Below, piece after piece: positions 18,676 to 21,913 of a DNA stretch of 64,000 nt. The notes under the pieces are model-generated. The model was not told the DNA's origin, did no database searches, and saw nothing but the letters and a program-made list of their open reading frames with translations. The translations under genes and the position numbers were made by a program. Position 1 is the first letter of the stretch, and the number at the start of each line of letters is the position of its first letter. The stretch covers positions 1 to 64,000 of the forward strand of contig PNOC01000007.1 in assembly GCA_013824615.1 (NCBI GenBank), given 5' to 3'. Source of the stretch: Thermodesulfovibrio sp. (lineage in GTDB: Bacteria; Nitrospirota; Thermodesulfovibrionia; Thermodesulfovibrionales; UBA6898).

Positions 18676-18776
18676 AAACCCCTCCAAACCTCCCCTTATC
18701 AGGGAAGACTTACATGAGCCTGCCGCCGCCGGGGTTCATCCCCCTTGATAAGGGGGGACCGAGGGGGGTTGGTTTT
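18676..18776. repeat. Inverted REP-like repeat pair downstream of nth
   Basis: Two related GC-rich copies in opposite orientation: 18676-18705 (AAACCCCTCC..., CCCCTTATCAGGG) and 18740-18776 (CCCCCTTGATAAGGGGGG..., GGGGGGTTGGTTT). The reverse complement of the second closely resembles the first. This is the layout of dispersed intergenic palindromes (REP/BIME type). It could also form a transcript hairpin after nth. Confidence 0.6.
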
Positions 18777-18887
18777 AGGTCTTGCATATAACCTGATAGC
18801 AGCGGGTTCTCAGGTTTCATCACCGGTCTTGCTCCGCCCTGTGTGGATATGATAAGGTACGACATATGCTCTACGGGGGAGAAGAAA

Positions 18888-19001
18888 ATGGCAAGTGAAA
18901 ATGTGACGCGGAAGGCATCCTTTCTCAGCACCGGCTGGTGGGTAATCCATGTCCTCGGGATCGCCGCCGTATACGCCCTCGGGCATATTCTCTGGAAATA
19001 G
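18888..19001 (+). CDS. 37-residue membrane microprotein A
   Basis: Tiny ORF with a strong GGGGAG ribosome site five to six bases before the ATG. After a short basic N-terminus (residues 1-15) comes one hydrophobic helix with the pattern GWWVIH-x11-H: His21 and His33, Tyr29, and LGH before a C-terminal ILWK. The next ORF encodes a clear paralogue. Not recognised; the conserved GWW, two His 12 apart and LGH make chance coding unlikely. It heads a cluster of five further genes. Confidence 0.65.
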   Translation: MASENVTRKASFLSTGWWVIHVLGIAAVYALGHILWK

Positions 19002-19003
19002 CC

Positions 19004-19108
19004 GTGCTTCAGTATTTCATGCGCTACAGGCCGGGCTGGTGGATACTCCATATTGCCGCTGTCCTGCTTACCCTGTACCTCGGCCATATGGTCAGGTTTA
19101 CTTTCTAA
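19004..19108 (+). CDS. 29-34-residue membrane microprotein B, paralogue of A
   Basis: Starts two bases after the first microprotein stop (GTG 19004; ATG 19019 would give 29 residues). The helix carries GWWILH, then ten residues, then LGH: the same GWW, His, 12-residue spacing and LGH as microprotein A, though the sequence between differs. The stop at 19108 is one base before the start of the next membrane protein, so the three look like one translational unit. Function unknown. Confidence 0.6.
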   Translation: MLQYFMRYRPGWWILHIAAVLLTLYLGHMVRFTF

Positions 19109-19109
19109 T

Positions 19110-19520
19110 ATGAATAAAAGAGCTCTTCTGGCCGCGCTCCTGCTTCTGGCCCTATCGGGCATGATGCTCCATTACCGGATACACCGCTTCATGGTCCCGG
19201 ACAGGACGATTCCGTCAGTCTATGTTATGGACAGCACAAAATTTCTGGCATTCCTGCTGCCGCTGATTGACGTTATCGTCGTCACCGGACTCTTTCTGTC
19301 ACGCAGGACGGTTGTTTATGGATATCTCCTTAACGGTCTGCTCGTAATCTATGGAACGGTCCTCATGGGCCACTACAGCATTGCCGAGATCATGGCGCGC
19401 GCGATACCTCCGGCCGACTGGCTGATCAAATCAACAGTACCTGATATCGGCATCAGCTGGGCAGACTTTCTGGTCGGCAAGATATTATATGATGAGACCA
19501 TGCGGAATGCTCCGCACTGA
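19110..19520 (+). CDS. Unknown membrane protein, 3-4 helices
   Basis: A 136-residue protein starting at ATG 19110, directly after microprotein B. Hydrophobic segments at about 4-20, 45-65, 69-92 and possibly near 110. Several His residues sit at the membrane edges (HYRIHR near residue 21, MGHYS near 91). Not recognised. Its tight coupling to the two microproteins suggests a small membrane complex, which is inference. Confidence 0.6.
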   Translation: MNKRALLAALLLLALSGMMLHYRIHRFMVPDRTIPSVYVMDSTKFLAFLLPLIDVIVVTGLFLSRRTVVYGYLLNGLLVIYGTVLMGHYSIAEIMARAIPPADWLIKSTVPDIGISWADFLVGKILYDETMRNAPH

Positions 19521-19546
19521 TCACGTTTCACAAGGGGAGTGATGCC

Positions 19547-19993
19547 ATGCCTCATTTCGGACTGATGGACGAAGAGGCACTGGGGCCTGAAAAAGCGGCA
19601 TTTCAGCGGGCACGTCTGCATATCAGGGCGGGCAGGAGACGGCTTCGGCAGGGGAAAATCTCGGCCGGCATACTGACCCTCTATGATGCCGTGGTCTTCG
19701 GGATGGAGTGGTATGCAGCCGTGTCTGACCACAGGGCAAAACTGACGGTTTCACCAGGTGAAGACCTCCGGCAGGATAAAATTCTGTATACCGTACTTGT
19801 CCGTTCCGGCGTCCTTGATGGTCAATTTGATTACCCTGCCTTTGATAACCTTGTAGAGTATGCTTCCAATAACGAAATGCCGGACTTTGACTATCGGGAA
19901 CTCCTGACATCAATAGAGGCGATCATGACCCAGCTGGAGATCATGCCATTCGATGAAAATGAACTCCCACCTGAAGATCCTGCCACCTATTGA
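19547..19993 (+). CDS. Unknown soluble protein in the microprotein cluster
   Basis: A 148-residue protein with AAGGGGAG before its ATG. No signal or membrane segment. The N-terminal half is helical and basic (ARLHIRAGRRRLRQGK, then TLYDAVVFGMEWY), and the C-terminal half is acidic, ending ELPPEDPATY. The helical part faintly recalls HEPN-like bundles but no catalytic motif is visible. Follows the membrane genes by 26 bases and precedes the nitroreductase by about 100. Confidence 0.6.
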   Translation: MPHFGLMDEEALGPEKAAFQRARLHIRAGRRRLRQGKISAGILTLYDAVVFGMEWYAAVSDHRAKLTVSPGEDLRQDKILYTVLVRSGVLDGQFDYPAFDNLVEYASNNEMPDFDYRELLTSIEAIMTQLEIMPFDENELPPEDPATY

Positions 19994-20093: not shown

Positions 20094-20918
20094 ATGCTTA
20101 TTTTTACCGTTGATAAACAGAAATGCACGGGCTGCGGTGAATGTGCCGAAGACTGTCCGGCACACATCATCGAAATGGAGAACGGCCTTCCCGGGATTGC
20201 GGCAGACAAGGAGGCCTCGTGTTACCGGTGCCAGCATTGTTTCGCGGTCTGCCCCACCGGGGCAGTTTCCATTCTCGGTCTCAAACCGGAGGAGAGCCTC
20301 GTATTGCCAGGGAATAAACCCGCCCCCGAAGAATTAGAGATCCTTATAAGGGGTCGCCGCTCGGTGCGGCGCTATCTGCCGGAGAATCTCGATGAAGCAT
20401 TGCTGCAGCGGCTTTTGGAGGTGGCCTGGTACGCACCGACGGCGGTCAATGCAAGGCAGGTCCAGTTCACCGTGGTGAATGACCGGAAGAAGATGGCGGC
20501 GCTCCGTGAAGATGTGATAGCCGGTCTCAGCCGTATGGTGCGGGAGGGAACCCTGCCCGAAGGCCTTGGCTTTTTTGCGGGGATAGTCACCGCGTGGGAA
20601 GAGAACAAGATTGATGTAATCTTCCGCTGGGCCCCGCATCTGATTATTGCCTCAGCCCCTCAAAACAGCTTGGCGCCGGTGGTGGACAGTCTGATAGCCC
20701 TTTCGTATTTTGAGCTCTTCGCTCAGGGCCTCGGAGTCGGCGCTGTCTGGGCCGGTCTGGCTAAATGGGCCATTAATGATCTGCTGCCAGAGACCCGGAA
20801 ACGCCTGGGAGTACCGGACGACCACGTGATCGGATATGCCCTGTTATTTGGCAAACCTGCCGTGCGTTATGCCAGGACGGTCCAGCGCGGCAAAGCAAAC
20901 ATACATTTCGCATCATGA
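20094..20918 (+). CDS. Ferredoxin-nitroreductase fusion
   Basis: Flavin oxidoreductase with its own electron-transfer domain. Residues 1-65 hold two 4Fe-4S motifs (CTGCGECAEDCP and CYRCQHCFAVCP). From about residue 80 comes an FMN-dependent nitroreductase domain with RRSVRRYL and the late GLGVGAVWAGL stretch. About 274 residues from ATG 20094, chosen for AAGGAGA seven bases upstream. Such fusions reduce unknown substrates with electrons from an internal or external ferredoxin. The neighbours are unknown membrane genes, so a redox role for the cluster is possible but unproven. Confidence 0.88.
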   Translation: MLIFTVDKQKCTGCGECAEDCPAHIIEMENGLPGIAADKEASCYRCQHCFAVCPTGAVSILGLKPEESLVLPGNKPAPEELEILIRGRRSVRRYLPENLDEALLQRLLEVAWYAPTAVNARQVQFTVVNDRKKMAALREDVIAGLSRMVREGTLPEGLGFFAGIVTAWEENKIDVIFRWAPHLIIASAPQNSLAPVVDSLIALSYFELFAQGLGVGAVWAGLAKWAINDLLPETRKRLGVPDDHVIGYALLFGKPAVRYARTVQRGKANIHFAS

Positions 20919-20932
20919 AAGGGGAAGATACT

Positions 20933-21913
20933 ATGAACAATATCGGAATCAGGTTTCTCATGGCTGTAATGCTGTTCTGCTTGACCGTCGCACCGGCCTG
21001 GGCAGGGGTAGAAGGGACGAATTCAACCTTTATCGGACTTAATGCGGGCGGTTCAACCGCCATCTTCTCGGACACACATGCCAATACGTTCGTTGGCGCC
21101 TCAACCGGCTTAGACGCGACAAGCGGCAGCTACAATGCTTTTTTGGGATTTCATGCCGGGCAGCATAATACAAGCGGCAACTACAATACATTCCTTGGGG
21201 CCACCGCAGGATTATCTAATGTTTCCGGCGGCAGTATGAACACCTATGTCGGTGCGTCCGCAGGATTCTATACAACGGGAAGCAACAACACGTTTATAGG
21301 ATACAATGCAGGCAGCGGCGCACTTGTCACGGGAAGCGGCAACGTCTTTATCGGCAAAGGCGCAGGTGAAAATGAGGACACATCGAACAAACTCTATATT
21401 GCTAATACGAATACCTTTTACCCCCTCATCTATGGGGAATTCGACAACGCAGCGGTCACTATATACGGGTCGCTGTCTGTGGCGTCTGTTGCCTCTCCAT
21501 CTGACGAAAGACTGAAGAAGAACATTCAGCCGCTGGAGTCGTCGCTCGAAAAAGTAATGAAGCTGCGCGGGGTCAGCTACGACTGGAAGACGGAGGAGTA
21601 TGCAGGCAGGGGCCTCGGCACGGACAGGCAGATAGGGCTTCTCGCTCAGAACGTCGAGGAGGTTATCCCGGTACTCGTCAAGACAGACAAAAAAGGCTAT
21701 AAGGCCGTCACCTATGAGAAAATGGTCCCTGTCCTGGTCGAAGCGATAAAAGAGCAGCAGGGCATGATCAAAGAGAGAGATGCCAAAATTGAGAAGCTCG
21801 AAAAAGCACTCGAAGCTCTGGAAAAGCGCGTAGCAGGAATTGATACCCCGGCCAGGACTTTGGCATTGCGGTCAATTACCTCTGCACTATCCATGACTTT
21901 ACCGGTACGGTGA
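20933..21913 (+). CDS. Secreted repeat protein with S74 intramolecular chaperone domain
   Basis: A 326-residue protein: signal peptide to about residue 25 (ending PAWAG), then about eight short repeats of the type NTFLGxxAG / NTFIGYNAG spanning residues 30-170, as in trimeric beta-helical fibres. Residues ~190-300 are a peptidase S74 (tailspike chaperone) domain starting SDERLKKNI, whose Ser and Lys are the self-cleavage residues. It ends in a coiled coil. S74 domains help fibres trimerise and then cut themselves off. Here it sits outside any phage genes, so it is probably a cell-surface or secreted fibre. ATG 20933 has AAGGGGAAG upstream. Confidence 0.82.
   Translation: MNNIGIRFLMAVMLFCLTVAPAWAGVEGTNSTFIGLNAGGSTAIFSDTHANTFVGASTGLDATSGSYNAFLGFHAGQHNTSGNYNTFLGATAGLSNVSGGSMNTYVGASAGFYTTGSNNTFIGYNAGSGALVTGSGNVFIGKGAGENEDTSNKLYIANTNTFYPLIYGEFDNAAVTIYGSLSVASVASPSDERLKKNIQPLESSLEKVMKLRGVSYDWKTEEYAGRGLGTDRQIGLLAQNVEEVIPVLVKTDKKGYKAVTYEKMVPVLVEAIKEQQGMIKERDAKIEKLEKALEALEKRVAGIDTPARTLALRSITSALSMTLPVR

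Follow-up and report, generated by a model that had tools for sequence, protein, structure and literature searches.

The window analysed here is a 64,000-nucleotide stretch of a Thermodesulfovibrio sp. contig (PNOC01000007.1). It contains three genes, here called P1, P2 and P3, which follow one another almost without gaps on the + strand. P1 (18888-19001) encodes a 37-aa single-helix membrane protein, MASENVTRKASFLSTGWWVIHVLGIAAVYALGHILWK, and an SD-like GGGGGAG lies ahead of it at positions 18875-18881. P2 (19004-19108) encodes a single-helix membrane protein of 34 aa, (V/M)LQYFMRYRPGWWILHIAAVLLTLYLGHMVRFTF; its GTG start agrees with the MLKYFMRY start of homologues, which open with MLKYFMRYKPGWW. 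P3 (19110-19520) begins one base past the P2 stop and encodes a four-helix membrane protein of 136 aa, with an HxRxH motif closing helix 1. In both small proteins, GWW is followed by a histidine at +3 from the second tryptophan and, 12 residues further, by a second histidine within LGH. The first histidines, His21 of P1 (GWWVIH) and His16 of P2 (GWWILH), are the predicted ligands of a haem b. The coordinates and the shared GWW-H-x11-H/LGH pattern had been given correctly by the first-pass annotation, which also knew no described family for these genes. Indeed, all three products remained below every Pfam and NCBIfam cut-off, and the sole weak Pfam match of P1 was cytochrome b559.

The gap ahead of P1 contains an imperfect 28-nt inverted repeat (18677-18770, 71% complementary, 38-nt loop), and part of its second arm, 27 nt long, is present twice in the genome (with at most 2 mismatches). 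Downstream of P3, a soluble ORF (P4, 19547-19993) is followed by a ferredoxin-nitroreductase gene. An ORF of 332 aa at 20915-21913 displays, by eye, NTFIGxNAG-type repeats and a C-terminal part resembling the intramolecular chaperone of phage or adhesin fibres.

Very short reading frames that family libraries leave unannotated might be chance ORFs or decayed gene fragments. However, when P1 alone was used in a tblastn-type search, strong matches were obtained in 14 of 101 genomes (host included), and P2 was located directly downstream in each. Both genes are under purifying selection, the differences among congeners being concentrated at third codon positions: 71, 22 and 105 differences at positions 1, 2 and 3 for P1, and 55, 36 and 152 for P2. 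In addition, comparison of the P1 and P2 profiles shows them to be homologous to each other (hhalign 97.9%, E 4e-13). P1 and P2 are thus real, paralogous genes, as had been proposed from their spacing and shared motif. Given also their conservation over at least ten phyla, their fixed order and a gene fusion (see below), an origin of the two frames by chance or decay is practically negligible.

Residues kept throughout the 14-genome set are F12, L13, G16, W17, W18, H21, I25, Y29 and G32 in P1, and F5, G11, W12, W13, L15, H16, T23, G27, F32 and F34 in P2. The first histidine is invariant in both proteins. This also holds for loci found via P3 alone, where P1/P2 lie beside P3 and GWW is in some cases replaced by GFW, GYW, GWF or GWY while the histidine is always kept. 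The genome-wide pattern scan described below fixed WW, H and the glycine at +11, so that their invariance among its matches is by construction; it was therefore judged on the tblastn-type set and on the P3-found set, which is free of this motif bias. The second histidine, the one within LGH, varies: it is present in 31 of 68 P1 (Asn in 23 of 68) and in 53 of 68 P2, replacements in the pair including Asn, Ser and Ala, and on the helical wheel it is offset from the first histidine by about 120 degrees. Owing to this variation, the second histidine and the x11 spacing were rejected as a functional element. The first-pass annotation had tied homologous pairs to retention of the histidines, GWW and LGH, and had speculated that the histidine spacing might suit haem or quinone contacts. 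Of this, the pair itself and the first histidine, with haem as its likely role, stood, while the LGH histidine and the spacing did not, and GWW proved variable in some pairs. A helical conservation moment, considered as proof of a haem face, was not significant.

We then consider how widely the three genes occur together. With the P1 profile, the pair was found in 25 of 396 Nitrospirota genomes; with the P3 profile, P3 was found in 28, including all 25 that carry the pair, and there it is adjacent to it. A tandem-motif scan of 84,980 genomes left at least 54 real tandem pairs after filtering. They cover, at minimum, Nitrospirota, Desulfobacterota, Thermodesulfobacteria, Omnitrophota, Planctomycetota, Elusimicrobia, Goldiibacteriota, Kiritimatiellae, Firestonebacteria, Saganbacteria, KSB1, Caldithrix and UBP1. 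WWVIHGSNM matches of the scan in Burkholderiales were discarded as DNA repeats; such tandem repeats, mimicking the tandem motif, occur in Acidovorax, Delftia, Comamonas and their relatives (L058, L062, L072, L088, L112, L159 and others). No viral contig carried the unit.

Outside Nitrospirota, P3 and P1 are mostly fused into a protein of ~165 aa, with P3 as the N-terminal part and P1 as the C-terminal helix, followed by a separate P2. This arrangement was seen in Omnitrophota, Planctomycetota, many Desulfobacterota and other phyla. The P3(-P1) profile matched 13 of 193 genomes in a sample centred on Omnitrophota, 12 of 247 in one centred on Desulfobacterota and 4 of 246 in one centred on Planctomycetota. 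P1-P2-P3 is therefore one conserved unit, and the fusion together with the constant company of the three genes makes it very likely that their products form one complex. The grouping of the pair with the following membrane gene in the first-pass annotation is thereby borne out, the fusion having escaped it, as had the resemblance to cytochrome b559. Its inclusion of the soluble gene, on the other hand, had to be abandoned. Of 101 relatives of the order, 39 carry P4 (148 aa, without Pfam or NCBIfam family; 39-80% identity), almost always at a place in the genome away from the pair; G000 and G002 are the only two in which P4 directly adjoins it. P4 was accordingly rejected as a member of the unit.

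When modelled, the P3-P1 fusion protein displays five helices (pLDDT 87, pTM 0.81), and complete or near-complete conservation is seen for HxRxH, which closes helix 1, and for WW..H in helix 5. Positively charged residues precede helices 1 and 5 and also lie between helices 2 and 3, and the N-terminus of P2 is basic too. The positions of these residues in the fusion protein suggest a cytoplasmic location for its N-terminus and for the beginning of the P1 helix. From this and from the basic P2 N-terminus, it can be inferred that P1 and P2 would be parallel, with their first histidines near the cytoplasmic face and HxRxH on the opposite side.

As for the fold of P3, a Foldseek search returned no decisive structural match for the bundle (best E 0.48). 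P3 shares the four-helix bundle with MauE/DoxX/VKOR-like proteins, and VIA-align rows for VKOR-like and NACHO structures reached Z 6-8. However, even the VKOR-like value of 8.1 over 115 residues is within the helical-bundle background, which extends up to about 13, unrelated bundles gave Z values as high as 11, and P3 scored below all cut-offs. Against Pfam MauE it obtained 17.1 bits (E 0.0068) with a cut-off of 27, which leaves it outside the MauE/DoxX type, and a Pfam scan of the fusion proteins returned scattered weak matches and no consistent family. To our knowledge, neither HxRxH nor a fused P1 helix is a feature of MauE/DoxX/VKOR-like families.

The company kept by P3 is informative in the instances when P1/P2 are absent. 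There are four such loci, in one of which (L241) P3 has an aberrant N-terminus. In the other three (L229, L242 and L243), P1/P2 are replaced by a haem b protein of the ferric-reductase/NADPH-oxidase type, carrying FAD and NAD domains and encoded directly after P3. The assignment (PF01794, PF08022, PF00175) was made by Pfam for L229 and L242, and by evident similarity to these for L243. These three loci represent a second, undescribed P3 system. No sequence relation of this protein to P1/P2 was seen, and it differs from them in being one chain with a multi-helix core, two expected haems and its own FAD/NAD domain, but it may fill the same haem b role. P3 is thus accompanied either by P1/P2 or by a haem b protein, which is an argument for P1/P2 being a haem b module as well.

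Cytochrome b559 is a haem-bridged alpha/beta heterodimer in which each small subunit contributes one histidine and the haem lies near the cytoplasmic side (PMC9214863). P1 and P2 resemble its subunits PsbE and PsbF (PF00283) in being encoded by an adjacent gene pair, in their size and single helix, and in the one invariant axial-type histidine of each, placed four residues past a conserved aromatic; their helices are likewise predicted to have the N-terminus inside and the histidine near the cytoplasmic side. In a search of 177,635 distinct PDB sequences, all matches of the narrow profiles were b559 subunits (6 of 6 for P1 and 5 of 5 for P2), and the multi-phylum profiles matched b559 beta in 23 of 24 (P1, best E 0.024) and 26 of 26 cases (P2, best E 0.054). 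In the PDB alignments, the invariant histidine falls on the axial haem ligand, and an aromatic at about +8 and a glycine at +11 are common to both families; these two positions and the aromatic at -4 are general in the pair. The b559 proline at +5 is found in three P2 only and the b559 arginine at -5 in four P1 only, for example SVRWWLLH compared with SVRYWVIH of PsbE.

Single E-values are marginal in both PDB and Pfam searches (best 0.024 and 0.001), and several controls bear on the likeness. The score of P1 to PsbF was 16.9 bits, as against 1.0 +/- 1.7 after column permutation that kept WW..H; for P2 the values were 16.1 and 1.4 +/- 2.0, and the observed value was reached by 0 of 400 permutations. 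The PsbE control was weaker, the observed score being reached by 26 of 400 (P1) and 10 of 400 (P2). Reciprocally, among 15,177 ORFs from 41 loci, the PsbF profile placed P1/P2 peptides at ranks 1-14 and the PsbE profile placed P1 at ranks 1-6. When the 3.6-Mb host genome was translated in six frames and searched with PF00283, P1 was the only match. By hhalign, P1-PsbF reached 82.5% and P2-PsbF 66%, the yardstick being 85.5% for the accepted pair PsbE-PsbF. Taken at the level of sequence, a likeness of P1/P2 to cytochrome b559 is established by these comparisons.

There are also differences from b559. The host has no photosystem reaction centre (a search for the type II reaction-centre protein PF00124 found none in its genome and detected it in a control cyanobacterium), and the pair is not part of photosystem II. 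Its partner is the four-helix P3, which many phyla have as a fusion with P1; where b559 has Arg-Trp or Arg-Tyr, the pair has Trp-Trp, and a luminal extension of the PsbE type is absent. PF00283 was matched weakly by 8 of 39 P1 members, and the gathering cut-off of 30 bits was reached by none, P1 of the window scoring 12-13 bits. As both this cut-off and photosystem membership had been tested and neither was found, P1/P2 were not filed under PF00283. A one-to-one correspondence of P1 with PsbE and P2 with PsbF was not significant (27 of 68 pairs, Wilcoxon p 0.10). In the open-access literature searched, no natural b559-like protein outside photosystem II has been reported.

It might be argued that any two-helix bis-His haem site favours an aromatic before the histidine and small residues after it, and that the likeness arose by convergence. 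Such an origin would agree with the comparable stretch of only about 20-25 residues, with scores below the Pfam cut-off and with the missing alpha/beta correspondence. However, no other haem helix pair appeared among the PDB matches, the permuted profiles failed to reproduce the PsbF score, and P1 is about as close to PsbF as PsbE is; we regard convergence as a real possibility, though not one we would favour. Clearly less probable is that the invariant histidine serves quinone binding, metal binding or helix packing, with P1 and P2 as small accessory subunits of P3. P3 does possess its own conserved HxRxH and fits no known fold clearly, but the b559-specific matches and the ferric-reductase-type haem b protein found beside P3 as a replacement speak against this role, and we consider it unlikely.

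Beyond P1-P3, the gene neighbourhood varies by lineage. Of 24 Nitrospirota genomes tested, 8 have rubrerythrin genes at most 3 kb from the pair, amounting to 12 genes where about 0.2 would be expected (98 matches in about 68 Mb). Genes for desulfoferrodoxin (4 loci) and Fe/Mn SOD (3 loci) were found in several phyla; nitroreductases occur within 8 kb at 7 loci, that of the window included, and 2-oxoacid:ferredoxin oxidoreductase genes at 5. At three loci (L194-L196, from UBP1 and two unclassified genomes), the P3-P1/P2 unit is flanked by ApbE upstream and an RnfE/NqrD-like gene nearby, and two of the three also contain a short CxxCH protein. A redox role would agree with these neighbours, as would, for some lineages, a function in oxygen defence.

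A more specific proposal is that the unit is a membrane electron-transfer device dedicated to oxygen or superoxide detoxification and fed by quinol or a flavoprotein. This would sharpen the reading of P1/P2 as a cytochrome rather than oppose it, and it would be analogous to activities proposed for b559, to which superoxide oxidase, reductase and PQH2 oxidase activities have been assigned (PMC4709441). The rubrerythrin excess, desulfoferrodoxin and SOD genes described above speak for such a dedicated function. However, oxygen-defence neighbours were found at 12 of 41 loci, and the other 29, the window's own among them, have no rubrerythrin, desulfoferrodoxin or SOD gene within 5 kb. Moreover, six of the eight rubrerythrin cases belong to one family, the genus of the window lacks the link, and other loci contain ApbE/Rnf or 2-oxoacid:ferredoxin oxidoreductase genes instead. 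As a general function of the unit, detoxification therefore appears rather doubtful.

The reading we prefer, with a probability of roughly two in three, is that P1 and P2 constitute a non-photosynthetic, b559-like, haem-bridged two-helix cytochrome of the b type that works with P3. According to this model, each of the two proteins would provide one transmembrane helix and one invariant histidine, and the two histidines would sandwich a single haem b near the cytoplasmic face. P3, with HxRxH at the periplasmic end of its helix 1, would be the permanent partner and probably holds a second reaction site, for a quinone, a metal or a periplasmic acceptor. The module would move single electrons across or within the membrane, and for some lineages a part in the defence against oxygen or superoxide is probable.

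As for the evolutionary relationship, we can tentatively suggest that the P1/P2 family is homologous to b559, so that the photosystem II heterodimer would derive from a more ancient redox module of non-photosynthetic membranes which persists, together with P3, in bacteria of many phyla; we put this below an even chance. The lineages of the module include Saganbacteria (L152), placed by NCBI in the Cyanobacteriota/Melainabacteria group.

Reports of cytochrome b559 have so far been confined to the oxygen-producing photosystem of plants and cyanobacteria; the look-alike pair described here belongs to a non-photosynthetic bacterium. Cytochrome b559 is indispensable to photosystem II, its function still being called unclear (PMC4709441); anoxygenic type II reaction centres lack it, and it is considered to have evolved in concert with oxygen evolution (PMC9214863). 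With the present unit, about ten bacterial phyla would gain an undescribed redox module of three genes, consisting in part of peptides shorter than 40 residues. A free-standing b559-like version without a photosystem would allow the chemistry of b559 to be studied in isolation, and it would offer a testable starting point for the origin of a photosystem II subunit.
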